From Pseudomonas sp. J452 (lineage in GTDB: Bacteria > Pseudomonadota > Gammaproteobacteria > Pseudomonadales > Pseudomonadaceae): a stretch of 64,000 bases of DNA. Positions 13,866 through 55,695 of the stretch are shown here, one piece after another; positions within the stretch are counted from its first letter, which is position 1; each line of letters starts with the position of its first letter. Where the stretch lies: contig NZ_CP088294.1 in assembly GCF_024666525.1 (NCBI RefSeq), forward strand, positions 4,464,001-4,528,000, written 5' to 3'. The notes under the pieces were generated by a model, which was not told the origin of the DNA, searched no databases, and was given only the letters and a program-made list of their open reading frames with translations. Position numbers and translations under genes: made by a program.

Positions 13866-13989
13866 GGTTGAGCGTCGCGAGCGAAGGGCTGGCTAGGCGA
13901 AGTGGCGTCGGAAAAGCGGAGTTGGCTCTAGCCAATGAGCATTTTCCGGCGCCACTTCAACAACGCCAGACCGAGCGCAGCAGCTCAAC
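13866..13989. repeat. nested-hairpin element, copy H1
   Basis: Three nested inverted repeats are visible: a short outer arm GTTGAGC (13867-13873) / GCTCAAC (13983-13989); a long inner stem of 17 bases (13899-13915 with 13942-13958, one G-T wobble); and a core TTGGCT-CT-AGCCAA (13922-13935). The linkers GCGGAG and TGAGCAT match the other copies, while the stem sequences differ. The outer arm overlaps the relA stop codon (13985-13987). Confidence 0.75.
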
Positions 13990-16231
13990 TGCTGCGGCTG
14001 CGGCGGGCCTCGATAATATTGGGCAGCTGCGAGATGCGCCCGAGCAGGCGCGCCAGCGCATCCAGCCCAGGGATCTCCACGGTGATCGACATCGACGCGG
14101 TGTTGTCTTCCTTGTTCGAGCGGGTATTCACCGCCAGCACGTTGAGGCGTTCGTTGAGCAGCAGCTGCGAGACGTCGCGCAGCAGGCCGGAACGGTCGTA
14201 GGCCTTGATCACGATATCCACCGGGTAGGTCTGCACTGGCACCGGGCCCCAGCTGACCTGGATGATCCGCTCCGGCTCGCGCCCGGCCAGTTGCAGCACC
14301 GAGGCGCAGTCCTGGCGGTGGATGCTGACCCCGCGGCCAACGGTGATATAGCCGACGATCGGGTCGCCCGGTAGCGGCTGGCAGCAGCCGGCCATCTGCG
14401 TGAGCAGGTTGCCGACGCCCTGGATCTGGATATCGCCGCGCTTGCCCGGCTTGTAGCCGGTGCTGGCGCGCCGCGGGATCAGTTCCAGCTGCTCGTTGCC
14501 ACGTTCCGGCTCGACCAGCTGCTGGGCCATGTTGACCGCATGGGCCAGGCGCAGGTCACCGGCCCCGAGGGCGGCGTGCATGTCCTCGGCGGTCTTCATG
14601 TTGCACTTGTCGGCCAGTTTGTCGAAGTCCACGTGCGGCAGCGCCAGGCGCGCCAATTCGCGTTCGAGCATGACCTTGCCGGCGGCGACGTTCTGGTCGC
14701 GGTCCTGCAACTTGAACCAGTGGACGATCTTCGCCCGCGCCCGCGAGGTGGTGATGTAGCCAAGGTTGGAGTTCAGCCAGTCGCGGCTCGGCGAGCCGTG
14801 CTTGCCGGTGATGATCTCCACCTGTTCGCCGGTCTGCAGGCTGTAGCTGAGCGGCACGATACGCCCGTTGATCTTGGCGCCACGGCAGTTGTGACCGATC
14901 TCGGTGTGCACACGGTAGGCGAAGTCCAACGGCGTGGCGCCCTTGGGCAGGTCGATGGCGTGGCCGTCCGGGGTGAACACGTAGACCCGGTCCGGCTCGA
15001 TATCCACACGCAGCTGTTCGGCCAGCCCACCGATGTCGCCGAGCTCCTCGTGCCACTCGAGCACCTGACGCAACCAGGAGATCTTCTCCTCGTAGTGGTC
15101 GGAGTTGCCCTTGACGTCGGTGCCCTTGTACTTCCAGTGCGCACACACACCCAGCTCGGCTTCCTCGTGCATGGCCGAGGTACGGATCTGTACTTCCAGC
15201 ACCTTGCCGTCCGGGCCGATCACCGCGGTGTGCAGGGAGCGGTAGCCGTTCTCCTTGGGGTTGGCGATGTAGTCGTCGAACTCCTTGGGGATGTGCCGCC
15301 ACAGGCTGTGCACGATGCCCAGCGCGGTGTAGCAGTCGCGCATCTCCGGCACCAGCACGCGCACCGCGCGCACGTCGTAGATCTGGCTGAACTGCAGGCC
15401 CTTGCGCTGCATTTTTCGCCAGATCGAATAGATGTGCTTGGCCCGCCCGCTGATGTCCGGCTTGATCCCGGCGGCGGTCAGTTCTTCGCGCAGCTGCTTC
15501 ATCACATCGTTGATGTACTGCTCGCGATCGAGGCGACGCTCGTGCAGCAGCTTGGCGATCTGCTTGTACTGCTCGGGCTCCAGGTAGCGGAAGGACAGGT
15601 CCTCCAGCTCCCACTTGATATGGCCGATACCCAGGCGATGGGCCAGCGGCGCGTAGATGTCGAACACCTCGCGGGCCACGCGGTGGCGCTTCTCGTCGTC
15701 GGCATGCTTGACCGCACGGATCGCGCAGGTGCGCTCGGCCAGTTTGATCAGGGCCACGCGCACGTCGTCGACCATGGCCACCAGCATCTTGCGCAGGTTT
15801 TCCACCTGCGCCTGAGAGCCGAGTACCAGGGAGTCGCGCGGGTTCAGCGAGGCGCTGATCGCCGCCATGCGCAGCACGCCCTCGACCAGCTTGGCCACCA
15901 CCGGGCCGAATTTTTCCTGCACGGTCTTGAGGGTGATCTTGCCTTCGCGCACGGCACGGTAGATCACCGCTGCGACCAGCGAGTCCTGGTCGAGCTTGAG
16001 GTCGGCGAGGATCTCGGCGATCTCCAGGCCGGTACGGAAACTGGAGTTGCCCTCGGCCCACAGGTTCTGTGCGGCATTGGCCTGCTGCTCGGCATCGCGG
16101 GCGAACTCGCAGGCGACTTGCAGCGCCGCGCGGTCCAGCGCCGGATCGGCCTTCAGGGTGTGGTCCAGCCACGCCTGCAGGTTGATGCTGCCGTCATCGT
16201 TGATCGGCTGATGAGCCCTGACCTGTACCAT
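13985..16231 (-). CDS. relA: GTP pyrophosphokinase RelA ((p)ppGpp synthetase I)
   Basis: Ribosome-associated enzyme that makes (p)ppGpp when uncharged tRNA is bound. The 748-residue protein has an inactive HD-like hydrolase domain (the metal-binding HD pair is absent; the region reads AAVIYRAVREGKITL), a synthetase domain with SGRAKHIYSIWRKMQRK, the EIYD-type strand QIYDVRAVRVLV and GYRSLHTAVIGPDGK, a TGS domain (VYVFTPDGHAIDLPKG), a zinc-finger-like region with AGCCQPLPGD, and a C-terminal ACT domain (VDIVIKAYDRSGLLRDV). It is therefore a synthetase-only RelA rather than SpoT. A structured element abuts its 3' end. Confidence 0.97.
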   Translation of the reverse strand: MVQVRAHQPINDDGSINLQAWLDHTLKADPALDRAALQVACEFARDAEQQANAAQNLWAEGNSSFRTGLEIAEILADLKLDQDSLVAAVIYRAVREGKITLKTVQEKFGPVVAKLVEGVLRMAAISASLNPRDSLVLGSQAQVENLRKMLVAMVDDVRVALIKLAERTCAIRAVKHADDEKRHRVAREVFDIYAPLAHRLGIGHIKWELEDLSFRYLEPEQYKQIAKLLHERRLDREQYINDVMKQLREELTAAGIKPDISGRAKHIYSIWRKMQRKGLQFSQIYDVRAVRVLVPEMRDCYTALGIVHSLWRHIPKEFDDYIANPKENGYRSLHTAVIGPDGKVLEVQIRTSAMHEEAELGVCAHWKYKGTDVKGNSDHYEEKISWLRQVLEWHEELGDIGGLAEQLRVDIEPDRVYVFTPDGHAIDLPKGATPLDFAYRVHTEIGHNCRGAKINGRIVPLSYSLQTGEQVEIITGKHGSPSRDWLNSNLGYITTSRARAKIVHWFKLQDRDQNVAAGKVMLERELARLALPHVDFDKLADKCNMKTAEDMHAALGAGDLRLAHAVNMAQQLVEPERGNEQLELIPRRASTGYKPGKRGDIQIQGVGNLLTQMAGCCQPLPGDPIVGYITVGRGVSIHRQDCASVLQLAGREPERIIQVSWGPVPVQTYPVDIVIKAYDRSGLLRDVSQLLLNERLNVLAVNTRSNKEDNTASMSITVEIPGLDALARLLGRISQLPNIIEARRSRSS

Positions 16232-16311
16232 CTCTTACCTTCCCTACGGCGAGCGTTCGACTCGCAGAAATATCGCCAGCCTCTCTGGACTGGTCAGACT
16301 ACGCGAGCATC

Positions 16312-17664
16312 CTAGCCCGCCTCGAATAACGCCATTGCCTCGACATGCGCCGTCTGCGGAAACATGTCGAGAATGCCGGCCCGTTTCAGCCGATAACCCT
16401 GGCGCACCAGCTCGGCCGCATCGCGGGCCAGGGTCGCCGGATTGCACGATACATAGACCAGGCGCCGGGCACCCAGCGTACCAATCTGCTTGACCACCTC
16501 GAACGCGCCGTCACGTGGCGGATCGAGCAATACCGCGTCGAACGCCTGCAGGGCCCAGCCGGCCTCGGCCAGCGGCTTCGACAGGTCTGCCCGGAAAAAG
16601 TGCAGATTGCCCAGACCGTTTGCCGCGGCATTTTCACGCGCGCGCTCGACCATCGCCTGCACCCCTTCCACCGCTACAACCTCGGCGACCTGCTGGGCCA
16701 GCGGCAGGGCAAAGTTGCCCAGGCCGCAGAACAGATCCAGCACGCGCTCGCCAGTCTGCGGTGCCAACCAGTCTAGTGCCTGTTCGACCATCGCCTGATT
16801 GACCGGCGCGTTGACCTGGACGAAATCGCCCGGGCGGTACTGCAGCTCCAGGTTCCAGGGTTCCAAACGGTAACCCAGGCTCAGTCCGGGCTGATCGGCC
16901 TCGGGCTCGCCGGCACCGTGCAGCCACAGCTGCGCCTGGTGCTCGCTACAGAAGCTGCGCAGGCGCGCCAGGTCGGCCTCGCCCAGCGGCGCCGTGTGGC
17001 GCAGCAGCAGGGCCGCCTGGGTGCCGTGGAACAGCTCGACGTGACCGAGTGCCTGGGGTTTTTCCAGGCTGCGCAGTAACAGCGGTAACGCGCGCAGCAA
17101 AGGCTGCAAGGGCTGTACCAGTACTGGGCAGTCGGCGATGGCGACGATGTCCTGGCTGGCCGCGGCGCGGAAACCCACCTCCAACTGCTTGGCCTTGACG
17201 TCCCAACGCACGGCGATACGCGCGCGGCGGCGGTAGGCAAACTCGGGGCCGACCAGCGGCGCGGCCCACTGCTCGGGCTCAATGCCGCCCACACGCTGCA
17301 GCTGCTCGCTCAGGCTGCGCTGTTTCAGGGCAAGCTGTTCGGCGTGCGGCAGGTGCTGCAGAGTGCAGCCGCCGCAGCTGCCGGCATGCGCGCAAGGCGG
17401 CTGACGACGCAGCTCCACGGCCTGCAGGATGCGCTCGGCGCGGGCCTCGACCACCTGGCTGCGGGCCGCCAGCACGCGCGCTTCGACCTCCTCGCCCGGC
17501 AGCGCGCCGGCGACGAACCAGCTGCGCCCTTCGAGGAAAGCGATACCGCGCCCATCGTTGGCCAGTCGCTCGATGCTGAGCTTCTGCTTCTTGCCCACCG
17601 GCACTTGCGCCTTGCGCTCGCCGCCACTGGGTTGGAAACGCAAGCCACCGCTGCGCTTGGCCAT
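16312..17664 (-). CDS. rlmD: 23S rRNA (uracil(1939)-C(5))-methyltransferase RlmD
   Basis: SAM-dependent methyltransferase for U1939 of 23S rRNA (formerly RumA). The 450-residue protein has an N-terminal TRAM domain ([19 protein letters not shown]), a cluster [10 protein letters not shown] that together with a later Cys binds a 4Fe-4S centre, the SAM loop [16 protein letters not shown], the motif LLDPPRDGA and the nucleophile segment [13 protein letters not shown]. The short Lys/Arg-rich N-terminus [18 protein letters not shown] is common in Pseudomonas. It lies between cysM and relA on the same strand, with 60 and 80 bases separating them. Confidence 0.96.
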
Positions 17665-17725
17665 CTGGATTACCTGCTGATCGATACGCTGAACGTGGGC
17701 CGCAGCCTGGCTACGGCCGTGGAAA

Positions 17726-18619
17726 TTACTGCGGGTCGTCGTAGACGCCGGTGGACAGGTAGCGATCGCCGCGGTCGCAGATGATCGCCACCATCACCGC
17801 GTTCTCCACTTCCTGCGACAGGCGCAGCATGGCCGCCACCGAACCGCCGGACGACACGCCACAGAAGATGCCCTCCTCGCGCGCCAGGCGGCGCATCACC
17901 TGCTCGGCTTCCAGCTGGCTCATGTCGATCACCCGATCCACTCGCGTGGCGTCGAAGATCTTCGGCAGGTATTCCTCGGGCCAGCGACGGATGCCGGGGA
18001 TCGCCGAACCTTCCTGGGGCTGCAGGCCGACGATCTGCACCGCCGGGTTCTGTTCCTTGAGGTAACGCGACACGCCCATGATGGTGCCGGTGGTGCCCAT
18101 GGAACTGATGAAGTGGGTGATGCTGCCCTGGGTCTGCTGCCAGATCTCCGGGCCGGTGCCGCTGTAGTGGGCGACCGGGTTGTCGCCGTTGGCGAACTGG
18201 TCAAGCACCTTGCCACGGCCATCGGCCTGCATCTGCAGGGCCAGGTCGCGGGCGCCTTCCATGCTGTCGACCAGGATCAGCTCGGCACCGTAGGCAGTCA
18301 TCGCCGCCTTGCGCTCGGCGGTAGAGTTGTCCGGCATGATCAACACCATCTGGTAACCCTTGATCGCCGCGGCCATGGCCAGGGCGATGCCGGTGTTGCC
18401 GCTGGTGGCCTCGATCAGCACGTCGCCGGGCTGGATATCGCCGCGCTGCTCGGCGCGGCTGATCATCGACAGCGCCGGACGGTCCTTCACCGAGCCGGCC
18501 GGGTTGTTACCTTCCAGCTTCACCAGCAAGGTGTTGGAGGTGTTGCCGGGCAGGCGTTGCAGGCGAACCAGCGGGGTGTTGCCGATGCAATCGGCGATGG
18601 TGGGAAACTGCAGGCTCAT
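17726..18619 (-). CDS. cysM: cysteine synthase B (O-acetylserine sulfhydrylase)
   Basis: PLP enzyme that forms cysteine from O-acetylserine and sulfide or thiosulfate. The 297-residue protein begins [20 protein letters not shown]; the PLP lysine is in [13 protein letters not shown], the substrate loop is [13 protein letters not shown], and the phosphate-binding glycine loop is [16 protein letters not shown]. The C-terminal [12 protein letters not shown] is also conserved. An Arg-rich lid, [15 protein letters not shown], is the feature that separates CysM from CysK. I chose ATG 18619; longer frames run into the promoter region shared with the divergent gacS gene. Confidence 0.96.
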
Positions 18620-18793
18620 GGCGAACTGAATGATCCGAATACAGAAAGGCGTCCATGATAACGGCAAACCGCCGCCCGCCATATCGCAGGAACCGCCCAG
18701 CTTGTTACCAATGCTTATATAGAGAGCCAAGCCGCTGTCAGCCATCCCGGTCAGCCGCTAAACTCCACCGACACTTACCTGCTGGAGAACCCC

Positions 18794-21547
18794 GTGTTCA
18801 AGGAACTCGGCATCAAGGGCCGCGTGTTGCTGCTCACCCTGCTGCCCACCAGCTTGCTGGCCCTGGTCCTGGGCGGCTACTTCACCTGGATGCAGCTGGC
18901 CGAACTGCGCGCCCAGCTGCAGCAACGCGGCGAACTGGTAGTACAGCAGCTCGCCCCTCTGGCCGCGCCGGCGCTGGCTAGCAACGACGCCAAGCTGCTC
19001 GAACGGCTGGCCCAGGAAACGCTCAACCAGGCCGATGTGCGCGCCGTCAGCTTCCTCTCCAGCGAACGCCAACCCCTAGCCCAGGCCGGCCCGAGCATGC
19101 TCAGCCCGCCGCCGCAGAGCGACGGCAGCCCGCTGGTGCAGAGCGGCGGCCAGGATGCCACGCGCTTCCTGCTGCCGGTCTACGGCCGCCACCGCAGTCT
19201 GGTCAGCGAGCAGAGCGATGCAGAGGCCAACCGCCTGATCGGCTGGGTCGAGCTGGAGCTGTCGCACCACCGCACCCTGTTGCAGGGCTATCGCAGCCTG
19301 TTCGCCAGCCTGCTGCTGATCGTCACCGGGCTGACCGTCACCGCCCTGCTCGCCCTGCGCATGAGCCGCACCATCAACGAACCGCTGCGCAGCATCAAGC
19401 AGGGTGTGGCCCAGCTCAAGGACGGCAACCTGCAGACGCGTCTGCCGGCCCTCGGCAACCATGAACTGGACGAACTGGCCTCGGGCATCAACCGCATGGC
19501 CGAGTCGCTGCAGAATGCCCAGGAAGAACTGCAGCACAGCATCGACCAGGCCACCGAGGACGTGCGACAGAACCTGGAGACCATCGAGATCCAGAACATC
19601 GAGCTGGACTTCGCGCGCAAGGAGGCCCTGGAGGCCAGCCGGATCAAGTCCGAGTTCCTCGCCAACATGAGCCACGAGATTCGCACCCCGCTCAACGGCA
19701 TCCTCGGCTTCACCAACCTGCTGCAGAAAAGCGACCTGACCCCGCGCCAGCAGGACTACCTAGGCACCATCGAGAAGTCCGCCGAAAGCCTGCTGGGGAT
19801 CATCAACGAGATCCTCGATTTCTCCAAGATCGAGGCCGGCAAGCTGGTGCTGGAAAGCATTCCGTTCAACCTGCGCGACCTGCTGCAGGACACCCTGACC
19901 CTGCTCGCCCCGGCCGCCCACGAGAAGCAGCTGGAGCTGGTCAGCCTGGTCTACCGCGACACCCCACTGTCGCTGCAGGGCGACCCGCAACGGCTCAAGC
20001 AGGTGCTGACCAACCTGGTCAGCAACGCGATCAAGTTCACCCGCGAAGGCACCATCGCCCTGCGCGCCATGGTCGAGGACGAGAGCGACGACCGCGCGCA
20101 GCTGCGCATCAGCGTGCAGGACACCGGCGTCGGCCTCTCCGACGAGGATCAACGCGCGCTGTTCCAGGCCTTCAGCCAGGCCGACAACTCGCTGTCGCGC
20201 CAGGCCGGCGGCACCGGCCTGGGCCTGGTGATTTCCAAGCGCCTGATCGAGCAGATGGGCGGCGAGATCGGCGTCGACAGCACGCCCGAGGAAGGTTCCG
20301 AGTTCTGGATCAGCCTGAGCCTGCCCAAGGCCCGCGATGACAGCGAAGACCTGCCGCGCGCGCCACTCAGCGGCCGGCGCGTGGCCATGCTGGAATCCCA
20401 CGCGCTGGTCCATCAGGCCCTGATTCATCAGCTGGAAGATTGCGGCCTGCAGGTCCTGCCGTTCGCCAGTCTCGACGCCCTGCTCGAAAGCGTGGCCCAG
20501 CACCAGCAAAGCAAGCAGCCGATCGAACTGGCCGTGCTCGGCGTGCGCGTGCAGGAGCTGCCCCCGGAGCAGCTCAGCCAGCGCGTCTGGGACCTCGACC
20601 GCCTCGGCTGCAAGAGCCTGGTGCTGTGCCCGACCACCGAGCAGGCGCTGTACCACGAGAGCCTGCCGGACGCACACAGCCAGCTGCAGGCCAAGCCCGC
20701 CTGCACGCGCAAACTGCAACGCGCCCTCTCCGACCTGATCCATCCGCGCCAGCACAGAAGCGAAAGCCGCCAGCCGCTGACCAGCCGCGCACCGCGCCTG
20801 CTGTGCGTCGACGACAACCCGGCCAACCTGCTGCTGGTGCAGACCCTGCTCGGCGACATGGGCGCCGAGGTGGTCGCCGTGGACAGCGGCTACGCCGCCC
20901 TGGAAAGCGTGCAGCAGCACAGCTTCGACCTGGTCTTCATGGATGTGCAGATGCCCGGCATGGACGGCCGCCAGGCCACCGAGGCGATTCGCCAGTGGGA
21001 ACAGGAGCGCGAGCGCAGCCCGATGCCGATCGTCGCCCTCACCGCCCACGCCCTCGCCAACGAGAAGCGTGCCCTGCTGCAGAGCGGCATGGACGACTAC
21101 CTGACCAAGCCGATCAACGAGCGCCAGCTGGCCCAGGTGGTACTCAAGTGGACCGGCCTCGACCTGCGTGGCCAGGTGGTCACCAGTGCCGCCGACAGCG
21201 TGCCGGCCAGCAGTTCGCTGCAGGTACTGGATGCCGAGGAAGGCCTGCGCCTGGCCGCCGGCAAGGCCGACCTGGCCGCCGACATGCTGAGCATGCTGCT
21301 GGCCTCGCTGGCCGCCGACCGCCAGACCATCCGCCAGGCCCGCGACAGCGGTGACCGCAACGCCCTGCTCGAACGGGTGCACCGCCTGCACGGCGCCACC
21401 CGCTACTGCGGCGTGCCGCAATTGCGCGCCGCCTGCCAACGCAGCGAAACCTTGCTCAAACAAGAGAGCCCAGCCGCCCAGGGCGCCCTCGACGAACTCG
21501 ACGCGGCCATCGCCCGCCTGGCCGAGGAGGCCGCCGTCAGCGCCTGA
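18794..21547 (+). CDS. gacS: hybrid sensor histidine kinase GacS (BarA type)
   Basis: Global regulator kinase that phosphorylates GacA and so controls small RNAs of the Rsm system. The 917-residue protein has two membrane segments ([40 protein letters not shown]) around a periplasmic domain, a HAMP linker, a HisKA domain with the phospho-histidine in [15 protein letters not shown] (His294), an ATPase domain ([29 protein letters not shown]), a degenerate receiver, a receiver with Asp717 in [12 protein letters not shown], and a C-terminal HPt with His863 in [12 protein letters not shown]. The start is GTG with a GGAGA ribosome site 6-10 bases upstream. It is divergent from cysM and upstream of ldhA. 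Confidence 0.97.
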
Positions 21548-21624
21548 AGCCAGCCCACACCGGGCCTCTCCATTCATCGATTGGATGCAGACTGGCAACC
21601 TGCATCCCGCCTCAGGAAACCGCC

Positions 21625-24419: not shown

Positions 24420-24583
24420 AAGAAGGGTTTAGGTCGTCGCGAGCGCAGGCCAGGTGGCGAAACGTAGTAACAGCCGCAGGCTGGTCAAACAGGTGAGGAC
24501 GCGCAGCTTACGAGTTGTAAATGAGCAGTCCGAACCTGTTTTCAACGACGCATGGCCAAGCGCAGCAGACATTAACCCTTCTT
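24420..24583. repeat. nested-hairpin element, copy H2
   Basis: Outer arms AAGAAGGGTTTA (24420-24431) and TTAACCCTTCTT (24572-24583) pair with one mismatch. Inner arms are AAACAGGT (24487-24494) and ACCTGTTT (24534-24541). The core is TTAC-GAGTT-GTAA (24508-24520, with linker bases between). The linkers GCGCAG and AAATGAGCA match other copies. The right outer arm contains the stop codon (24572-24574) of the FabH-like gene, so the gene end forms part of the hairpin. Confidence 0.75.
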
Positions 24584-31327: not shown

Positions 31328-32122
31328 ATGCAGCCCGCACCGGCCGCGAGCAAGCGCCTGCTCGATCATGGGCAATGGCGCCTGCTCGGCTGCCTGCTGG
31401 CGCTGATCGCCCTGGCCTGGTTCGAACTCTGGCGCATGAGCCAGGCCATGGTCGCGCCTGGCGGCATGCTGGACATGGCCATGGCTGGCATGCCGATGCC
31501 CTGGAGCCTGACCGACGCCGCGCTGATGCTGGCCATGTGGCTGCTGATGATGCTGGCGATGATGCTGCCCAGCGCCCTGCCCATGCTGCTGCTCTACCAG
31601 CAATTGCTCAAGCGGCGCCTGCCGACCGGCCAGCACCTGCTGGCCATGAGCCTGTTCATCGCCGCCTACTTGCTGGTCTGGGGCGGTTTCTCGCTGCTCG
31701 CCACTCTGTTGCAGTGGTGGCTCGATCACCTGAGCCTGCTTAGCCCCGAACTGCGCAGCACCAGCATCTGGCTGGCGGCCGCCCTGCTGTTCGGCGCCGG
31801 GCTGTATCAGTGGCTGCCGCTGAAACAGGCCTGCCTGCGGCACTGCCAGGGCCCGGTGCTGTTCCTCGCCGGGCACTGGCGCCCCGGCGTCAGTGGCGGC
31901 TGGTCCATGGGCCTGCGCCACGGCCTGTATTGCCTGGGTTGCTGCTGGGCGCTGATGGGCCTGCTGTTCGTGGTCGGGGCGATGAACCTGCTGTGGGTAG
32001 CGCTGATCGCCGCCTATGTGCTGCTGGAAAAACTGCTGGCCAGCGGCCCCTGGCTGGCCCGTGGCGCCGGCCTGCTGCTGATGGGCTGGGCACTGCACCT
32101 GCTGTTGCCGGCCTGGATATAG
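31328..32122 (+). CDS. DUF2182 domain-containing integral membrane protein
   Basis: A 264-residue polytopic membrane protein with about six or seven segments. The Met-rich loop MLDMAMAGMPMPW and the segment MLAMWLLMMLAMMLPSALPM are characteristic, as is the Cys motif LYCLGCCWALMGLL near residue 200. Met, Cys and His richness is compatible with metal handling, which remains inference. The gene starts 3 bases after the DUF1326 stop and is surely cotranscribed with it. A nested-hairpin element begins 47 bases downstream. The length is typical for the family. Confidence 0.9.
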   Translation: MQPAPAASKRLLDHGQWRLLGCLLALIALAWFELWRMSQAMVAPGGMLDMAMAGMPMPWSLTDAALMLAMWLLMMLAMMLPSALPMLLLYQQLLKRRLPTGQHLLAMSLFIAAYLLVWGGFSLLATLLQWWLDHLSLLSPELRSTSIWLAAALLFGAGLYQWLPLKQACLRHCQGPVLFLAGHWRPGVSGGWSMGLRHGLYCLGCCWALMGLLFVVGAMNLLWVALIAAYVLLEKLLASGPWLARGAGLLLMGWALHLLLPAWI

Positions 32123-32168: not shown

Positions 32169-32316
32169 CTAGCAGGCCGCTGAAAAATGTTGACGAGGCA
32201 GCCGAGACAAGGCGAAAACGGCCGAAAAATCGCAGTTTACGCGTTGTAAATGAGCATTTTGAGGCAGTTTTCAACGCAGTATCGGCAACGCAGGTAGTTT
32301 TTCAACGGCCTGCTAG
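32169..32316. repeat. nested-hairpin element, copy H3
   Basis: Outer arms of 19 bases (32169-32187, 32298-32316) beginning CTAGCAGGCCGCTG and ending ACGGCCTGCTAG pair with one mismatch. The core is TTTAC-GCGTT-GTAAA (32236-32250). An inner pair AAAACGGCC / GGCAGTTTT pairs imperfectly. The linker TGTAAATGAGCATTTTGA is identical to copy H5. It lies between plus-strand genes, ending 32 bases before the next ATG. Confidence 0.78.
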
Positions 32317-32348: not shown

Positions 32349-32936
32349 ATGGACAACGTCTACAAAGCCCCCGAAGCCGCCCTCATCGACCCCGCCACGA
32401 CAGCTGGCGGCACCGCCTTCTTCGTCACCTCGATCCGCAAGATGGCCATCCTCTATATCGCCACCCTGGGCATGTACGTCCTCTACTGGGGCTACAAGCA
32501 GTGGGACAGTCAGCGCCACAGCATGCCCAAGCGGATCATGCCGGTGTGGCGCTCAATCTTTATCATCTTCTTCATGCACAGCCTGGCGCGCCGGATTGGC
32601 GAGCGCCTGCAGGCCCAGGGCCAGCCACTGGGGAAACCCAGCGGCGCCGCGACCCTGTTCGTGGTGTTGGTGGTGCTGGGCGGCGTGCTCGGCAGCGTCA
32701 CCTCGCGCAACGATGTGCCGGTCATCCTCGATATCCTGGCGCTGCTCCTGCAACTCGCCTCGTTGCTGCCGATGATCAGCATCCAGCGCCAGGCCAACCT
32801 GGCCAGCGGCGACCCGGAAGGTGCCAGCAACAGCAGCATGTCCGGCAGCAACATCGCCTTCCTGATCCTTGGTGGCCTGCTCTGGCTGCTCTATCTGGCC
32901 GGTCTGGTGATGATCATCCTACTCGGCGGCGCCTGA
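32349..32936 (+). CDS. hypothetical membrane protein
   Basis: A 195-residue protein with about four hydrophobic segments: MAILYIATLGMYVLYWGY near residue 32, SIFIIFFMHSLA near 70, ATLFVVLVVLGGVLGSV near 100 and NIAFLILGGLLWLLYLAGLV near the C-terminus. The region LGMYVLYWGYKQWDSQR recalls small DUF4234-like membrane proteins, but I cannot assign a family with confidence. The N-terminus MDNVYKAPEAAL is a short polar tail with a GTAAGGA ribosome site upstream. The H3 repeat element lies directly in front of it. It converges on the polyamine-binding protein gene. Confidence 0.8.
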   Translation: MDNVYKAPEAALIDPATTAGGTAFFVTSIRKMAILYIATLGMYVLYWGYKQWDSQRHSMPKRIMPVWRSIFIIFFMHSLARRIGERLQAQGQPLGKPSGAATLFVVLVVLGGVLGSVTSRNDVPVILDILALLLQLASLLPMISIQRQANLASGDPEGASNSSMSGSNIAFLILGGLLWLLYLAGLVMIILLGGA

Positions 32937-36173: not shown

Positions 36174-36275
36174 GGCAACTGGCTTCCCGGCAAAAGCCGG
36201 CATGCTTGCTCAGCAGGCACGCCGGCATCCAGTGGGGTGACGCTGGCGGCTCTTCAGAGCCTACCGGGGTCACTC

Positions 36276-36417
36276 AGAGCCTTTTCACGATTTTCTGAAT
36301 TAGAGCCAGGCAAGGCGAAAATGACCGAGGGAGCGGAGTTTACGAGCTGTAAATGAGCATCCCGAGGTCATTTTTAACGCGGCATGGCCGACAGTCAGGA
36401 GATCGTGAACAGGCTCT
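36276..36417. repeat. nested-hairpin element, copy H4
   Basis: Outer arms AGAGCCTTTTCACGAT (36276-36291) and ATCGTGAACAGGCTCT (36402-36417) pair with one mismatch. Inner arms AAAATGACC (36318-36326) and GGTCATTTT (36366-36374) pair perfectly. The core TTTAC-GAGCT-GTAAA is at 36339-36353. The linkers AAGGCGAAAA, GCGGAG and AAATGAGCAT match other copies. The right arm ends on the first base of the stop codon of the lipoprotein gene. Confidence 0.78.
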
Positions 36418-36848
36418 CAGGGCTTGGGCATATCCGGGCGAATATCGAAACCACCCTTGTTCTCGCTGACGATGCGGAAGGCGTAGGTCTCACCGGCCGT
36501 CACCGGCACCGCCAGCTCGCGCAACAGGCGGCCCATGCTGCACAGGGTGTCGTCCTGCTTGTCCAGGGTGATACCCACCACCCGCGTGCCCGCCGGCACC
36601 TGGAAGGTCGCCACCTCACCGATGCCGATACGCGCCGCTACCTGGCGATCCACTTCGATGGCCACATAGCAGCCGCCGCCCATCATGCCCAGGTCACGGT
36701 TGACCACGATCTGCCCAGCCCCTTCACGCACTTCCTGGAAAGCCAGCAGGCGGTCGGCCGGCACCGGTTGCACATGCTCCGGATCGGCACGAAAGGACGA
36801 ACAACCGGCCAGCAACAGCAACGGCAGAACTGCAGAGATCAAGCGCAT
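36417..36848 (-). CDS. predicted lipoprotein of unknown function
   Basis: A 143-residue lipoprotein. The N-terminus MRLISAVLPLLLLAGCSSFR has a perfect lipobox (LAGC). The mature part is a small beta-rich domain with YVAIEVDRQVAARIGIGEVATF split over residues about 70-90, then AGTRVVGITLDKQDDTLC and ETYAFRIVSENKGGFDI, reminiscent of DUF2846-like lipoproteins; I am not sure of the family. It is monocistronic, with a promoter presumably in the 120-base gap upstream. The H4 hairpin element overlaps its stop codon. Confidence 0.82.
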   Translation of the reverse strand: MRLISAVLPLLLLAGCSSFRADPEHVQPVPADRLLAFQEVREGAGQIVVNRDLGMMGGGCYVAIEVDRQVAARIGIGEVATFQVPAGTRVVGITLDKQDDTLCSMGRLLRELAVPVTAGETYAFRIVSENKGGFDIRPDMPKP

Positions 36849-47903: not shown

Positions 47904-47935
47904 ACGACGCGACTTCTGCCAGGCTTCCAATCGAG

Positions 47936-48613: not shown

Positions 48614-48643
48614 TGCCATGTTAACTGTAAAGAGTACGGATAA

Positions 48644-49039: not shown

Positions 49040-49100
49040 CAAGTCGATCAAGGCCACTCACATTCGTTCGCTGGATAACTGCAGTCTGCGCATTTTATGC
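49034..49100. mobile_element. attC-like recombination site (degenerate)
   Basis: AGCTAACAAGTCGATCAAG at 49034-49052 closely resembles the start of integron attC sites (RYYYAAC followed by AAG), and GCGCATTTTATGC at 49088-49100 resembles the usual GCGTTATGC end, with the invariant GTT changed to TTT. The 67-base span is in the normal range. The gene stop codon falls inside the left end, as in gene cassettes. No integrase gene or second attC is seen in the window. Confidence 0.55.
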
Positions 49101-49246
49101 CCAGCCTTACACTGCCCCTTAGTTCTGCGCTACAGGCCACGGAATTTGACCGCACGCTGATCCAACCGATAAACCCACCGCCCCGACCAGCTGATTGGAT
49201 TGGCACTTCGCTCCTGTTGCTGGAGCGGCACGACAAGGACTCCGTG

Positions 49247-49792: not shown

Positions 49793-49851
49793 ACGAATCT
49801 AAAGCATGCCCAGGCGTTAGCCCATACGGTGGGCAATGCCAGCGCTCTGCT

Positions 49852-49946
49852 CCCCTCTCCCACTTGTGGGAGAGGGGCGGGGGGCCGGGGGGAGAGGAAA
49901 CGCAAATCCACCCTCTCCCCAGCCCTCTCCCGTAAACGGGAGAGGG
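49852..49946. repeat. pair of CTCTCCC-type palindromic repeats
   Basis: Two hairpins in tandem: CCCCTCTCCCAC-TT-GTGGGAGAGGGG (49852-49877), then CCCTCTCCCGT-AA-ACGGGAGAGGG (49923-49946). They belong to the same family as 38431 and 51783; the arms differ but remain self-complementary. They lie in the gap before the glutamate-synthase-like gene. Confidence 0.8.
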
Positions 49947-50037
49947 GGCGAAAAACCTACCTGATCTACATTACGTACCGCAGGTACTGTTCAGCACCGA
50001 TCAACCGTCAGCTCCCCCTCACCGGCAAGGAATCCCC

Positions 50038-51651
50038 ATGAGCCTGTCGCTGCTCAATCGCTATGCCTTCTTCGCCTTCTGCGTGCTGTTTACCCTACTC
50101 AGCCTGCCGTTTCTCGGGGCTCATGAATGGTTGTGGGCGCTGACCCTGCTCACCGGCGTGCTCAGTCTGGTCGGCCTCAACGATCTGCTGCAGACGCGCC
50201 AGGCGGTGCGACGCAACTACCCGATCCTGGGCAATATCCGCTACCTGGTGGAGGGCCTGCGCCCGGAGATCCGCCAGTACCTGCTGGAGGCCGATGGCGA
50301 CAAGCTGCCGTTCTCCCGCGCGCAGCGTTCGCTGGTGTATGCGCGGGCGAAGAACCAGAGCGCCGACAAGGCCTTCGGCACCCTCAGCGATGTGTACCAG
50401 AGCGGCTTCGAGTTCATCGGCCACTCCATGCTGCCGGCCGAACACTGCGACCCCAGCAGCTTCCGCGTCACGGTCGGCGGGCCGCAGTGCACCCAGCCCT
50501 ACTCGGCCTCGGTGTTCAATATCTCGGCGATGAGCTTCGGCTCGCTCAGCGCCAACGCCATCCGCGCGCTGAACCAGGGCGCCCAGCGCGGCGGTTTCTA
50601 CCACGACACCGGCGAGGGCAGCATCAGTCCCTACCACCGCGAGCATGGCGGCGATCTGGTGTGGGAGCTGGGCAGCGGCTACTTCGGCTGCCGCACGGAG
50701 GATGGCCGCTTCGACCCGGCCCGCTTCGCCGAGCAGGCACGCAACCCGCAAGTGAAGATGATCGAGATCAAGCTGAGCCAGGGCGCCAAGCCGGGTCATG
50801 GCGGCATCCTGCCCAAGCACAAGGTCACCGCGGAAATCTCCCTCACCCGTGGCGTGCCGATGGGCCAGGACTGCATCTCGCCGGCGCGCCACAGTGCCTT
50901 CGCCACGCCGCTGCAGCTGCTGCAGTTCATCGCGCAGCTGCGTCAGCTGGCGGATGGCAAACCGATCGGCTTCAAGTTCTGCCTGGGCCATCCGTGGGAG
51001 TTCATGGGCATCGCCAAGGCCATGCTGGAAAGCGGCATCCTCCCCGACTTCATCGTGGTCGATGGCAAGGAAGGTGGCACCGGCGCGGCGCCGCTGGAGT
51101 TCACCGACCATATCGGCGTGCCGCTGCGCGAAGGCCTGCTGTTCGTGCACAACACCCTGGTCGGCTGCGGCCTGCGCGACAAGATCAAGCTCGGCGCCAG
51201 CGGCAAGATCGTCAGCGCCTTCGACATCGCCAGCGTCATGGCCCTCGGTGCCGACTGGGCCAACTCGGCGCGCGGCTTCATGTTCGCCATTGGCTGCATC
51301 CAGTCGCAGAGCTGCCACACCAATAAGTGCCCGACCGGCGTGGCCACCCAGGACCCACTGCGCCAGCGCGCCCTAGTGGTGCCGGACAAGGCCGAGCGGG
51401 TGCACAGCTTTCACCGCAACACCCTCAAGGCCCTGGCCGAGATGCTCGCCGCCGCTGGCCTCAGCCACCCGTCGCAGGTCGAGGCCAGGCACCTGGTGCG
51501 GCGCATGTCGGCCAGCGAGATCAAGCTGTACTCGCAGCTGCATGTATTCCTCAAACCGGGCGAGCTGCTCAGCGGCGAGGTGTCCGGCGAGTTCTACCCG
51601 CGCATGTGGAGCATGGCGCGAGCCGACAGCTTCGAGGCGGCGGAGGTCTAA
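50038..51651 (+). CDS. FMN-binding glutamate synthase family protein with membrane segment
   Basis: A 537-residue protein related to the central and FMN domains of glutamate synthase large subunit. Two N-terminal hydrophobic segments (YAFFAFCVLFTLLSLPFLGA; ALTLLTGVLSLVGL) probably anchor it. The FMN barrel shows ISAMSFGSLSANAIRALNQG, KPGHGGILPKHKV, VVDGKEGGTGAAPLEFTDH and IKLGASGKIVSAFDIASV. The Fe-S-type cysteines are in GCIQSQSCHTNKCPTGVATQ. There is no glutaminase domain. The usual partners gltD and amidotransferase are absent, so its substrate may differ. It is flanked by palindromic repeats on both sides. Confidence 0.92.
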   Translation: MSLSLLNRYAFFAFCVLFTLLSLPFLGAHEWLWALTLLTGVLSLVGLNDLLQTRQAVRRNYPILGNIRYLVEGLRPEIRQYLLEADGDKLPFSRAQRSLVYARAKNQSADKAFGTLSDVYQSGFEFIGHSMLPAEHCDPSSFRVTVGGPQCTQPYSASVFNISAMSFGSLSANAIRALNQGAQRGGFYHDTGEGSISPYHREHGGDLVWELGSGYFGCRTEDGRFDPARFAEQARNPQVKMIEIKLSQGAKPGHGGILPKHKVTAEISLTRGVPMGQDCISPARHSAFATPLQLLQFIAQLRQLADGKPIGFKFCLGHPWEFMGIAKAMLESGILPDFIVVDGKEGGTGAAPLEFTDHIGVPLREGLLFVHNTLVGCGLRDKIKLGASGKIVSAFDIASVMALGADWANSARGFMFAIGCIQSQSCHTNKCPTGVATQDPLRQRALVVPDKAERVHSFHRNTLKALAEMLAAAGLSHPSQVEARHLVRRMSASEIKLYSQLHVFLKPGELLSGEVSGEFYPRMWSMARADSFEAAEV

Positions 51652-51672
51652 CCCTACGCGCTGTGGCACTAG

Positions 51673-51740
51673 GTAGCCCGGATGTAATCCGGGAGTGGTC
51701 TGAGGGCCTACCGAGATTCCCCGGATTTCATCCGGGCTAC
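51673..51740. repeat. palindromic repeat, GTAGCCCGGAT family, copy 3
   Basis: GTAGCCCGGATGTAATCCGGG (51673-51693, given as its 21 bases in two parts: GTAGCCCGGATG, TAATCCGGG) and right arm CCCCGGATTTCATCCGGG plus CTAC (51719-51740) form the same inverted repeat as at 13784 and 41102, with a 25-base loop. Confidence 0.85.
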
Positions 51741-51782
51741 GGACTGGGGAAATAGTGAGTTGGCAAATTCCCTCTCCCCCAG

Positions 51783-51808
51783 CCCCTCTCCCACAAGTGG
51801 GAGAGGGG
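51783..51808. repeat. CTCTCCC-type palindromic repeat
   Basis: CCCCTCTCCCAC-AA-GTGGGAGAGGGG, a perfect 12-bp stem identical to that at 38431-38456, preceded by a partial CCCTCTCCCCC. Three different repeat families lie within about 190 bases here. Confidence 0.85.
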
Positions 51809-51840
51809 AGCTTCCCGCGCTGCGCAAGTTTTCAGAGAAC

Positions 51841-51860
51841 GCGGGTTGCACCCGCCCTAC
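51841..51860. repeat. single arm of the GTAGGGCGGGT repeat family
   Basis: GCGGGTTGCACCCGCCCTAC is one arm of the inverted repeat seen in full upstream of metR (43604-43653), with one changed base. It ends 12 bases before the stop of the polyamine-binding protein gene. Confidence 0.6.
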
Positions 51861-51872
51861 GCGAAACGGCAA

Positions 51873-52973
51873 TCAGCTACCGGTCTTGATCTTGTTCCAA
51901 GTCCGCGTGCGTACGCGCTCGACCTTCAGCGGCAGCGGTTCGAGGGTGAACAGCGTGGCCATCACTTCGGCCGACGGGTAGACGCCGGGATTGTTGCGGA
52001 TCTCGGCATCGACTAGCGGGCTGGCATCCAGGTTGGCATTCGGGTAGCCAACGTGGTTGCTGGTGGCAGCCATAGGTAGCGCCCGCATCAGGTAGTCGAT
52101 CAGCGCCAGGCCTTGCTGCGGATGCGGTGCATCCTTGAGCAGCACCAGGCTCTCCATCCACACCGGTGCGCCTTCACGCGGGATGCTGTAGCGGATGTCG
52201 CGGCCGTTGTTGGCGGCCTTGGCGTTCTTCTGCGCCTCGAACACTCCGCCACCCCAGCCGAGCACCACGCAGATATCGCCGTTGGACAGGTCGGTGATGA
52301 ACTTGGACGAGTCGAAGTAGCGGATATGCGGGCGCACCTTGGCCAGCAGCGCTTCGGCCTGCTTGTAGTCCGCGGGATTGCGGCTGTTCGGCGGCAGTCC
52401 CAGGTAATGCAGGGCGATGGGGATGATCTCGCCCGGCGCATCGAGCATGGCCACGCCACACTGGCTGAGCTTGGCCAGGTTGTCTTCCTTGAAGATCAGT
52501 TCCCAGGAATCCACCGGGGCGCTGTCGCCCAGCGCGGCTTTGACCTTGGCCTGGTCGTAGCCGATGCCGGTGGTGCCCCACAGGTAAGGCACGGCATGCC
52601 GGTTGTCCGGATCATTGCTCTGCAGCTTGTCGAGAATGGCGCCGTCGAGGCGCTGCCAGTTGGGCAACTGTTCGCGTGGCAGTTCCGCCAGCACGCCGGC
52701 CTTGATCAGGTTCGGCAACAGGCTGTCGGTGACCACCACCACGTCATAGCCGCTGCGCCCGGTGAGCAGCTTGCTGGTCAGCACCTCGCCGCTGTCGAAG
52801 GTATCGAGCAGCGTCTGGATGCCGCTGTCGCGGGCGAAGTCCTTGGTCACTTCGGGGCCGATGAAGTCGTACCAGTTGTACAGGTGCACCACCGGTTCGG
52901 CGGCCTGCACGGGGCCGAGCGCCAGGCCGCACAGGGCGACCAGGCTCAGTTGCAGGGAGCGGGGAAAATTCAT
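51873..52973 (-). CDS. polyamine ABC transporter substrate-binding protein (PotF/SpuD type), second copy
   Basis: A 366-residue binding protein with signal peptide MNFPRSLQLSLVALCGLALG. Motifs are VVHLYNWYDFIGPEVTKDFA, TSKLLTGRSGYDVVVVT, VPYLWGTTGIGYDQ and RYSIPREGAPVWMESL. It is clearly related to the protein at 32975 but with a different ligand-pocket sequence (LYNWYDF against LYIWNEY). No ABC permease or ATPase genes are adjacent. It starts 37 bases after a nitrilase-type amidase on the same strand, suggesting joint uptake and hydrolysis. I use ATG 52973, which starts the signal peptide. Confidence 0.9.
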   Translation of the reverse strand: MNFPRSLQLSLVALCGLALGPVQAAEPVVHLYNWYDFIGPEVTKDFARDSGIQTLLDTFDSGEVLTSKLLTGRSGYDVVVVTDSLLPNLIKAGVLAELPREQLPNWQRLDGAILDKLQSNDPDNRHAVPYLWGTTGIGYDQAKVKAALGDSAPVDSWELIFKEDNLAKLSQCGVAMLDAPGEIIPIALHYLGLPPNSRNPADYKQAEALLAKVRPHIRYFDSSKFITDLSNGDICVVLGWGGGVFEAQKNAKAANNGRDIRYSIPREGAPVWMESLVLLKDAPHPQQGLALIDYLMRALPMAATSNHVGYPNANLDASPLVDAEIRNNPGVYPSAEVMATLFTLEPLPLKVERVRTRTWNKIKTGS

Positions 52974-53010
52974 GGGGTAACTCCTGGGGAAATCGGGGCG
53001 CAGGGCGGGT

Positions 53011-53826
53011 TCAGGGCAGCAGCAGCTCGCGGCGGCCGTCGGCATGTTCGCGGCGCTCGCCCTGCAGCGGCAGGCGGCGGTCGGCCAGGTAGTGGTAATA
53101 GCTGCGGGCCGCGCCGACGCGGGCCAGATCCAGCGTCAGGCTCAGCCGGCACTCGTCGCGGCCGCTCTCGCAGAGCAGTTGGCCGAAGGGATCGACCACC
53201 GCGCTGCCACCGGCGAACACCAGGCCGTCATCGCCGGCGCCGACCCGGTTGACCATCAGCGCGTAGAGCTGGTTTTCCTGGGCACGCGCCAGCAGTGCGG
53301 TGCGGTGCACCGGGCCGTAGGGGTCCATGTTGCCGTTGCACACCACGATCAGCTCGGCACCCAACTCGCCGAGGGCGCGGGCGTTTTCCGGGAACTCGAT
53401 GTCGTAGCAGATCAGCAGACCGATGCGCACACCGCGCCAGACCACCGTGGCATGGCGGTCACCGGGCACTACCAGGCTGCGCTCGTCGGGCCACAGGTGG
53501 GTCTTGCGGTAGCGCAGGGCAATGCCTTCGGGGGTGATCAGCAGGCTGGTGTTGTAGAAGGTGCCGGCGTCGTTCTCGATCAGGCCGACCACCACCGCCA
53601 CATCGCGCTCGCGGGCGGCACGCTGTACGGCCTGCACGCTGGGGCCATCCAGCGGCTCGGCGATGCGGGCGACGCTGCTGGCGGAGGGAAAACCGCACAG
53701 CCCGGTCTCGGGAAACACCAGCAGATCGCTGTCGGCGGCGCAGCTGGCGATGGTCTGCAGGGTGCGTTCGAGGTTGTAGGGGGTGTCGCCATCGCGACCG
53801 GCCAGTTGGAAGAGTTCGACCTTCAT
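53011..53826 (-). CDS. carbon-nitrogen hydrolase (nitrilase superfamily amidase)
   Basis: A 271-residue nitrilase-superfamily protein with the complete Glu-Lys-Cys triad: Glu in LLVFPETGLCGF, Lys in RYRKTHLWPDE and Cys in GLLICYDIEFPEN. GNMDPYGPVHRTALLARAQE follows, as in amidases that act on small amides. Members include N-carbamoylputrescine amidohydrolase (AguB) and various amidases, so the polyamine neighbour makes an amino-amide substrate plausible but unproven. It is divergent from a LuxR regulator across 121 bases, which likely controls it. Confidence 0.92.
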   Translation of the reverse strand: MKVELFQLAGRDGDTPYNLERTLQTIASCAADSDLLVFPETGLCGFPSASSVARIAEPLDGPSVQAVQRAARERDVAVVVGLIENDAGTFYNTSLLITPEGIALRYRKTHLWPDERSLVVPGDRHATVVWRGVRIGLLICYDIEFPENARALGELGAELIVVCNGNMDPYGPVHRTALLARAQENQLYALMVNRVGAGDDGLVFAGGSAVVDPFGQLLCESGRDECRLSLTLDLARVGAARSYYHYLADRRLPLQGERREHADGRRELLLP

Positions 53827-53947
53827 GCAGACTCCTGGGGTTGTTCAACGGGGCCGCAAGCGGGCACCCTGTATGTGCAATCGAGTATGCCGGGGCTGCA
53901 CACTGCCGGTAATCACGTGGATGGAGTAACCCTGCGGGGGTAGGAGC

Positions 53948-54718
53948 ATGGGCTTGCAGTTGCAGGATATCGCCTGGCACCAGTCGGTCGGCCGGCTGAT
54001 CGAGACGCTGGACAAGCCGCTGTTCTGGGTCGCCCTGGCGCGCCTGCTGCAGCAGTACGTACCGTCCGATAGCTGGGTGGTGCTGCTGTTCAGCCGCGAT
54101 CGGCCGCAGGTGTTCGCCGAGTGCCCCGGCGACGGCGGCCCCGACCCGCTGTTCCAGGACTACCTGCAGGGCCTCTACCTGCTCGACCCCTTCTACATCG
54201 CCAGCCGCGAGCAGCAGTTCGCCGGCCTGCTGCGCCTGGCCGACGTGGCCCCGGAATGCTTCGAGCAGACCGACTACTACCAGCGCTATTTCCGCCTCAA
54301 CGTGGTGGCCGACGAGATCCAGTTCAACGTGCCGCTGGAGGGCGAACGCACCTTGTGTCTGTCGCTGGGTGCATGCCAGCCGTTCAGCCCGGAACAGATC
54401 GCCCTGCTCGGCCTAATCCAGCCCTGGGTCATGGCCCTGATGCGCCAGCGCCTGGCCTTCGAGCAGGAACTGCTGGCCCGCCCGGCAGCACCGGCCCCAG
54501 CCTGGCAGCACCGCCTGGAAAGCGCCGGCGAGCTCACCGCCCGCGAACTGGAAATCGCCCGGCTGATGCTCAGCGGCGGCTCGGGCAAGGAAATCGCCCG
54601 GCGCCTGGGCATCTCCGCGGAAACCGTCAAGGTCCACCGCAAGCACATCTACGCCAAGCTCGGCATCAAGTCGCAGTCCGAGCTGTTTGCCCTGTTCCTG
54701 CAAGCGCAGCAGAGCTGA
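53948..54718 (+). CDS. LuxR-family transcriptional regulator
   Basis: A 256-residue regulator with a C-terminal LuxR helix-turn-helix: LTARELEIARLMLSGGSGKE followed by IARRLGISAETVKVHRKHIY and AKLGIKSQSELFAL. The N-terminal 185 residues have no autoinducer-binding signature that I recognise, so it is probably not a quorum-sensing receptor. It is divergent from the nitrilase and polyamine-binding-protein genes, with the shared promoter region at 53827-53947, and is their likely regulator. The effector is unknown. Confidence 0.9.
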   Translation: MGLQLQDIAWHQSVGRLIETLDKPLFWVALARLLQQYVPSDSWVVLLFSRDRPQVFAECPGDGGPDPLFQDYLQGLYLLDPFYIASREQQFAGLLRLADVAPECFEQTDYYQRYFRLNVVADEIQFNVPLEGERTLCLSLGACQPFSPEQIALLGLIQPWVMALMRQRLAFEQELLARPAAPAPAWQHRLESAGELTARELEIARLMLSGGSGKEIARRLGISAETVKVHRKHIYAKLGIKSQSELFALFLQAQQS

Positions 54719-54753
54719 AAGCTGGAACTGATCGCGCGACTAGGTAGTCAGCT

Positions 54754-54770
54754 AAGTGTCCTTTACACTT
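54754..54770. promoter_or_regulatory. inverted repeat upstream of the GST gene
   Basis: AAGTGT-CCTTT-ACACTT is a perfect 6-5-6 inverted repeat 34 bases before the GST start, in the gap after the LuxR gene. The arm length and spacing suit a dimeric regulator; the AT content is too high for a strong terminator. The binding protein is unknown. Confidence 0.4.
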
Positions 54771-54804
54771 CGCCCAAAGTTTATGGCACAAGGCCACCAC
54801 CCCG

Positions 54805-55545
54805 ATGCGCACCCTGTACCAGTTCCCGATTTCCCACTACTGCGAAAAGACCCGCTGGCACCTTGAGCACAAGGGCCTCGACTACCAGGTCGCCAACCTG
54901 TTTCCCGGCCTGCACCGTTTCACGAGCAAGCGCCTGGCCGGCATTGTCACCCTGCCGATCCTGCAGGATGGCGCCACCCGCATCGGCGACTCCACCGCCA
55001 TCGCCCTGCACCTGGAACAGGCCTACCCGGATCTACCACTGCTGCCGGAAGATGCCGCCCAGCGCGCGGCCGTGCTCGAACTGGAGGAGCGCTTCGACCG
55101 CCTCGGCGTGCATGTGCGGCGCTGGCTGTATGGCCAGATCAAGGACTGGAGCTCGGTGATGCACGCCATGCTCAAGGTCTACCGGCCCTGGTTCGGCCTG
55201 CGTGATCTGCTGCAGCCGCTGCTGATCAATGGCGTGCAGAAGCTCTACGGGGTGACCCCCGAGCGCGTGGCCAAATCCCGGATCGAACTGCTGGCAGGCC
55301 TCGACCTGATCGAACAGCAAATCGGCGGTGACCCGGCGCGCTACCTGGTCGGTGAGCGCCTGAGCCTGGCCGATGTCAGCGCCGCGGCCCTCTATGCCCC
55401 GCTGTTCACCCCGACCGGCACGCCCTGGGACGGCATTGCCGGGCATGACGCCGAGACCCAGCGCTTCCTCGACCAGCTCTACGCCCGTCCGGCCGGGCAG
55501 TGGGTGCTGCGCCGCTATGCCGAGGATCGCCCGCGCGCCGAGTGA
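54805..55545 (+). CDS. glutathione S-transferase family protein
   Basis: A 246-residue cytoplasmic protein with an N-terminal thioredoxin-like domain (LYQFPISHYCEKTRWHLEHK, with a catalytic-type Cys/Tyr region) and the glutathione-binding LPILQDGATRIGDSTAIALH, then an all-helical C-terminal domain containing YLVGERLSLADVSAAALYAP, the GST N-capping box. Substrates of this group include electrophiles and peroxides; none can be named. It runs into a nested-hairpin element shared with the convergent VOC gene. Confidence 0.9.
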   Translation: MRTLYQFPISHYCEKTRWHLEHKGLDYQVANLFPGLHRFTSKRLAGIVTLPILQDGATRIGDSTAIALHLEQAYPDLPLLPEDAAQRAAVLELEERFDRLGVHVRRWLYGQIKDWSSVMHAMLKVYRPWFGLRDLLQPLLINGVQKLYGVTPERVAKSRIELLAGLDLIEQQIGGDPARYLVGERLSLADVSAAALYAPLFTPTGTPWDGIAGHDAETQRFLDQLYARPAGQWVLRRYAEDRPRAE

Positions 55546-55556
55546 TGGCGCGTTAG

Positions 55557-55695
55557 CAGGCTGTTGAAAAACGTTGGCGAGGTAGCCAGCGCAAGGCAAA
55601 AACAGGCGAAAAAGCGCAGTTTACGAGCTGTAAATGAGCATTTTGAGCCTGTTTTTAACGCCGCGAGGCAACGCAGGTAGTTTTTCAACAGCCTG
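55557..55695. repeat. nested-hairpin element, copy H5
   Basis: Outer arms CAGGCTGTTGAAAAAC (55557-55572) and GTTTTTCAACAGCCTG (55680-55695) pair perfectly. Inner arms AAAAACAGGC (55598-55607) and GCCTGTTTTT (55647-55656) pair perfectly. The core is TTTAC-GAGCT-GTAAA (55620-55634). It fills the gap between the GST and the convergent VOC gene and ends exactly one base before the VOC stop codon (TTA at 55696-55698), so it could terminate both. Confidence 0.82.

Follow-up and report, generated by a model that had tools for sequence, protein, structure and literature searches.

A short nested-hairpin element of Pseudomonas sp. J452 with MITE-like ends and a core fold kept by two-sided change

Why would a small repeated sequence let the letters of its stems vary while keeping them paired? 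This question is raised by a 64,000-nt window of Pseudomonas sp. J452 (NZ_CP088294.1, assembly GCF_024666525.1, positions 4,464,001–4,528,000, forward strand), in which a sequence-only reading had described five dispersed copies of a nested-hairpin element, here called H1 to H5. On balance, we favour the explanation that the element is a non-autonomous transposon resembling a miniature inverted-repeat transposable element (MITE), moved in trans by transposases of insertion sequences (IS), and that a strand-specific folded core is needed for its propagation. Bacterial MITEs are usually viewed as decayed insertion sequences in which nothing inside is selected. The present element keeps an internal fold through compensatory change, across phyla and with several kinds of ends, and so allows a test of whether small DNA elements can propagate in a structure-dependent manner. 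With more than 100 such hairpins in one genome, many of them at gene ends, the element could also affect transcript ends.

All five copies are present on the + strand (H1, 13866..13989; H2, 24420..24583; H3, 32169..32316; H4, 36277..36416; H5, 55557..55695). Two pairs of bounds were judged by flanking triplets: H5 keeps the bounds it had been given (TTA), and H4 shifts to 36277–36416 (TCA). Each copy folds better than 200 of 200 shuffled sequences, with minimum free energies of −64.3 to −75.5 kcal/mol and z-scores of −7.72 (H1), −5.22 (H2), −5.21 (H3), −9.12 (H4) and −7.65 (H5). The common linkers, inner arms and core palindromes read from the sequence at the outset are found at these coordinates, as are the divergent core TTGGCT..AGCCAA and the long uninterrupted arm of H1. 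The nesting of the stems also holds, but in place of three levels there are four paired arms and a terminal hairpin.

The element is about 125–170 bp long, or up to about 255 bp with inserts. Read inwards on the + strand, it has an outer arm of about 12–20 bp with a loop inside it (GCGAGCGAAG / GAGCGCAGTAG or CAACGCAGGTAG), arm 3 of 4–6 bp followed by the loop CAAGGC / AACGCNG, arm 1 of 8–10 bp (10 bp in the core model) followed by GA/GA, and arm 2 of 4 bp followed by two GC pairs and a GSAG/TGA internal loop. All four arms vary in sequence. Arm 1 has an A-rich foot at 5′ and a T-rich foot at 3′. The terminal hairpin is TTTAC n5 GTAAA, with other palindromes instead in H1, in genome G010 and at loci L107, L114 and L115. 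In some copies additional hairpins are inserted at two constant positions, one following CAAGGC and the other TGAGCA; in H2, the insert of ∼27 nt lies in the 5′ arm (about 24460–24486). The insert sequences, GTAGTAACAGCC..GGCTGGTC and GACTCG..CGCCCTTCGGG.., seem to be partly inverted copies of each other and are seen at 24460–24486 of the window, at L084, L094, L097, L112, L127 and L131–L138, and at others near 1450–1650. Genes were called with a simple home-made codon score, and a called open reading frame (ORF) spans 2 or 1 (two counts) of the own-genome copies examined.

To follow the suggestion that a covariance model be built, we derived a 69-position model (R1) from H2–H5 with the structure written by hand. 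R1 matches all five window copies, including H1, which was outside the model (E 2.7e-8), and many more elsewhere in the genome; the core of H5 as modelled (R1 and a second model, R2) spans 55594..55662 on the + strand. A sixth, weak match in the window (52203–52267, − strand, E 0.13) was taken as chance. The whole genome (4.86 Mb, one contig) holds at least 142 matches at E ≤ 1, a lower bound because only 150 of 1,215 candidates were scored, and the weakest of these may be chance hits; 107 matches were found at E ≤ 1e-6 (134 scored). At the latter threshold the element is found in 27 of 38 genomes (own plus 37 relatives), with a patchy copy number of 107, 63, 37, 31, 30, 29 down to 0. A phylum draw yielded at least one match in 57 of 299 genomes, with at most 17 candidates scored per genome.

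Beyond these genomes, AGTTTACNNNNNGTAAATGAGCA was sought in named genome contigs, where at least 119 stretches carry it, 80 of them listed as L139–L218. Gammaproteobacterial titles include Pseudomonas, Stutzerimonas, Halomonas, Salinicola, Marinospirillum, Methylophaga and Marinobacter, and other titles include Nitrosomonadales, Desulfobacterales, Alistipes, Bacteroidaceae, Rikenellaceae, Pedobacter and Cryomorphaceae. As many of these records are metagenome bins, individual assignments may be wrong; the Pedobacter copy, for one, looks Pseudomonas-like. The nested plan around the core recurs in these other taxa, the Bacteroidota records being more divergent. A comparison of cores used 87 hand-chosen sources, without L021. 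With H5 as query, no match was found in the phage collection or in 20,395 E. coli records. Ten stretches with the core pattern (L376–L385) lie on nine viral contigs, one stretch occurring twice. Plasmids contributed 15 records, too few copies for an empty-site comparison. The initial reading did not recognise the family; Rfam gave no match at gathering thresholds over the window and none at E ≤ 1 over the loci of six copies, and a tRNA/tmRNA search of the sequence gave no match.

In total 135 copies were extracted (130 loci plus the five window copies). As H5 is also locus L021, it is counted twice in the own-genome totals for ORF span, stop codons, neighbour orientation and strand stability; pair-class and nearest-neighbour counts use distinct rows only, and the TNA triplet count leaves out L021. 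Own-genome counts rest on 117 copies in which 22 or more of the 27 core letters are present, a set that excludes H1 with its divergent core, and the end-matched count on 118 copies with 20 or more.

Does the pairing persist because it is selected? In an alignment of 96 matches (94 distinct), 97.5% of cells pair, and two-sided changes occur in 19 of 21 pairs. Two-sided cells number 416, compared with a mean of 102.5 after shuffling, and none of 500 shuffles reached any of five measures. When the pairing was slid by 1–3 columns, only 34–54% of cells were paired. Because this alignment had been fitted to the model, it is biased towards pairing; it contains 34 G.U and 11 A.C cells. We also counted pair classes without fitting, in 50 type B and 12 type A rows (the types refer to the ends, see below) with at most 45 differences from the type example, skipping pairs with Watson-Crick letters in fewer than 60% of rows. 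The 50 type B own-genome rows gave 2,314 Watson-Crick, 80 G.U, 33 A.C and 73 other cells, 16 of the 33 A.C cells coming from one doubtful pair.

When type B copies were compared with their nearest neighbours (39 pairs), 78 changes were two-sided, where 21 were expected, and 150 were one-sided, of which 66 exchange Watson-Crick and G.U pairs and 84 are of other kinds. The 21 closest pairs show 40 one-sided changes (23 between Watson-Crick and G.U, 17 others) and 11 two-sided changes (1.5 expected). Such a mixture is typical of ordinary compensatory change in which resident copies are free to decay. The covariation across many copies thus supports the proposal that folding, as RNA or single-stranded DNA, is under selection.

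The two strands do not fold equally well. Of 117 own-genome copies, 106 have a + strand more stable than the complement, by a mean of 7.6 kcal/mol, and so do 23 of 24 copies from genome G001 and 16 of 18 from G029 (24 of 30 loci passed the cut in G001, which has 64 matches, and 18 of 30 in G029, which has 31). The inner hairpin alone gives the same result in 22 of the 24 G001 copies. In type B rows, 24 pairs have more G.U than A.C and 5 the reverse. With respect to replication, the + strand lies on the lagging side in 72 of 114 copies, a weaker effect than that of neighbouring genes described below.

How does the element come to be in so many places? A mobile, MITE-like nature is well supported: the element is short and non-coding, and has terminal inverted repeats and a target duplication. 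Near-identical copies occur at unlinked places in G022, G009, G010, G106, G118 and G123; at the 6 loci read in G022 and the 8 in G106 their flanks differ. In all eight G106 copies the flanks read Y, TA, element, TA, R; as the left flank is CTAG and the right flank CTAA in four of them, a duplication of TA within YTAR fits better than one of four bases. In the window, H3 has type A ends with CTAG at both extremes, and H5 has type A ends (CAGGCTGTTGAAAAAC) with TTA at 55553–55555 (one extra G before the element) and at 55696–55698. H4 has type B ends (GAGCC..GGCTC) with TCA on each side (36274–36276 and 36417–36419). Among the type B copies of the genome, 31 of 47 have the same triplet on both sides, which is TNA in all 31.

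Three end types from other genomes equal or nearly equal the terminal repeats of insertion sequences of the IS5 and IS1182 families. The elements of G003, G009 and G010 end in TAGGCTCTGTNNGAAAAGTC, within 3 mismatches, and the IS5-type copy L311, which resides in G010 itself, has TAGGCTCTGTACGAAAAG at its left end and TAGGCTCTGTACGAAA at its right; both of its ORFs score above the NF033580 IS5 cut-off. IS5-type copies in G001 and G008 carry near variants of these ends, the match within G001 being approximate. The G022 elements end in CAGACTGTGTGAAAACG; the IS1182-type copy L334 in the J452 genome carries these 17 bases at one of its ends and 16 at its other end. L334 is degenerate and falls below the NCBIfam cut-off because its frame is broken. 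One of two G047 copies has TAGGGCCTGTTAACAC, as found at one end of the IS5-type copy L329 in G012, the first ORF of which is just below the NCBIfam cut-off. Several end types coexist in G001 and in the J452 genome. The best reading of these data is that the ends are exchangeable and the core is conserved and strand-specific.

Some further observations concern insertion sites. At L211 (about 6000–6130) the element lies between the halves of a terminator-like GC-rich stem, as does the IS1182-type copy L334 (779–2297), as if by insertion into the loop (stem halves AGAGCCCCGC..GCGGGGCTCT; CCCGCC..GGCGGG). The near-identical G022 copies L284, L285, L286 and L288 are followed by the same REP-like GGTAGGAGGGGACTTGTCCCCG repeat and may insert beside it or move with it. 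Just left of H1, a separate inverted repeat at 13785–13845 (GTAGCCCGGATGTAATCCGGGGG..CCCCGGATTGCATCCGGGCTAC) is probably another repeat family.

In the explanation that we favour, the outermost stem would double as terminal inverted repeats, to be cut in trans by the DDE transposases of insertion sequences that reside, or once resided, in the genome (IS5 family and, in another lineage, IS1182 family). Insertion into a YTAR or TNA target would duplicate TA or TNA, and landing on a stop codon (TGA/TAA) would restore the stop and be harmless. The + strand of the core folds into a nested rod, in which the purine internal loops (GA/GA; GSAG/TGA) are conserved. What we infer is the mobilisation in trans, and also that propagation requires the + strand to fold, whether as RNA or as single-stranded DNA. 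One-sided changes in resident copies, with deeper differences compensated, are what is expected if only foldable copies leave descendants.

Several points weigh against this explanation. DDE transposition, a process of double-stranded DNA, does not explain why the fold should be specific to one strand or why loops should be conserved. Movement is seen indirectly, in near-identical copies at unlinked places, and no transposition event was observed. No identical triplet flanks 16 of the 47 type B copies, and the matching insertion sequences for G022 and G047 (L334 and L329, both below the NCBIfam cut-offs) sit in different genomes from the elements. In the J452 genome, no insertion sequence with type A or type B ends was found (no pattern search was run for type B): the 18 exact CAGGCTGTTGAAAA sites all lie at element ends, PF13340 has no match, and the two PF01609 matches have other ends in one case and no clear ends in the other. 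The look for a linked transposase that had been advised covered the ORFs listed around the five copies, none of which is an obvious transposase by eye; more distant genes lay outside it. Type A rows show no G.U bias (11 G.U against 13 A.C; 12 rows), the inner hairpin alone is more stable on the + strand in just 11 of 18 G029 copies, and the + strand advantage is partly built in, because the conserved G.A-type purine loops become pyrimidine mismatches on the complement.

We put forward, tentatively, a further possibility: the element may be one ancient hairpin parasite with no particular insertion sequence as its source, whose conserved single-strand fold has spread across phyla. It would gain its terminal repeats from transposase families unrelated to each other, including at least IS5 and IS1182, and would have to fold its + strand, as RNA or single-stranded DNA, in order to be copied or cut. 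If so, transposition of short elements would depend on structure recognition.

The main rival is a host-level structured RNA, in which the transcript would fold at gene 3′ ends as a terminator, insulator or mRNA-end structure; host selection would keep the fold and mobility would merely spread it. We regard this as rather unlikely, but the position of the copies speaks for it. In the window, the stop codon of the right-hand − strand ORF lies in the right outer arm of H1 (TCA, 13985–13987; 748 aa, RelA/SpoT-like by eye) and of H2 (24572–24574; 374 aa, FabH-like by eye), and the right-hand triplet is itself the stop codon at H4 (TCA; 143 aa) and H5 (TTA; 136 aa). H3 has no such stop and is flanked by + ORFs, one ending at 32122 and one starting at 32349. 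In the J452 genome, type B copies at exact offset have a − strand stop at the right end in 28 of 50 cases and a + strand stop at the left in 6. With ends matched, the counts are 40 right and 9 left among 77 bounded copies, 10 and 3 of 23 in G001, and 2 and 1 of 5 in G029; fold-based bounds, which spread into the flanks, gave the lower counts of 18 and 4 of 117. Thirteen Bacteroidota-like copies, a hand-labelled set that includes L195 (titled only ‘uncultured bacterium’), show 6 right and 0 left stops. In 12 of these 13, and in 16 of 18 G029 copies, the gene to the right runs on the − strand. The A-rich and T-rich feet of arm 1 also suit a host RNA.

Other observations do not agree with such a role. 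The + strand is antisense to the abutted gene, so that the mRNA of that gene carries the less stable strand. A terminator scan around two copies found no terminator, and 84 of the 150 one-sided nearest-neighbour changes are not of the Watson-Crick to G.U kind. The 51 copies from other genomes, Bacteroidota excluded, show no bias (5 right and 3 left stops), and 14 of 24 G001 copies have a − strand gene on their right.

Gene-end placement is also consistent with insertion as favoured here. TNA includes TGA and TAA, and a TNA duplicated at a stop codon therefore leaves the gene intact. The gene next to H4 is present in three relatives without the element at its end; as the sequences are 72–79% identical, they show absence and not an exact empty site. 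Both ends of the element are the same repeat, yet the stop-codon placement is asymmetric, which suggests that the interior matters.

This asymmetry is one reason why an ordinary deletion-derived MITE, in which the terminal repeats alone would matter and arm pairing would be a by-product of the palindrome, is already disfavoured and appears very improbable. The terminal repeats and target duplications of the element are indeed MITE-like, but the core loops are conserved across phyla, the arms change in pairs, and R2 finds no core at E ≤ 1 in 14 loci holding the above and other IS copies.

Palindrome correction, by which one arm copied from the other would keep the pairing in the place of selection, would account for the coupled differences at two outer-arm positions (NN = AC, CT or GC, in both arms) in four of five G003 copies that are alike in the core but differ in their outer arms (the fifth, L294, mismatches at one base), and for the excess of two-sided changes over independence even in the 21 closest pairs, but we give it hardly any credence, as those pairs differ mainly one-sidedly and it cannot explain the type B excess of G.U over A.C or the conserved unpaired linkers.

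In order to place the element among known systems we searched the open-licence literature and found no description of it; among the matches listed for papers carrying its sequence strings, no title concerns such an element. REPs are tagged by GTAG or GGAG, are mobilised by tyrosine (RAYT) transposases and are not known to make target duplications of this kind. In contrast, the present element has DDE-family-like ends and duplicated target triplets, and a GTAG/RAYT reading was set aside on these grounds, although no search for a RAYT gene was made. The GSAG foot bears a partial resemblance to the REP tag, and REPINs and the REP-RAYT system are likewise high-copy palindromic non-autonomous elements in Pseudomonas (PMC3116915, PMC2817692). 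The following elements are compared by description. MITEPsy1 of Pseudomonas syringae is a 100-nt element with 18-nt terminal repeats and the ends GGAAGGTCTGAAAAAGCC / GTATCCTCTGAAAAAGCC, which duplicates a CTAG or YTAA target, is tentatively assigned to IS5 (‘IS5?’) and transposes in vivo (PMC3189936). It is alike in being short and non-autonomous with terminal repeats and target duplication, and differs in its length and ends and in that the consulted part of its description mentions no conserved fold. The enterobacterial ERIC and RU elements are comparable as small mobile intergenic sequences of about 127 bp (PMC2759123). QMITE2 of Coxiella burnetii, at 150–190 bp with a strong predicted fold and a position at 3′ ends overlapping the last 1–10 bp of genes, resembles the present element in size, fold and gene-end position, but differs in its 7–11 nt direct repeats and in a GTAG REP core targeted by IS1111 (PMC5896051).

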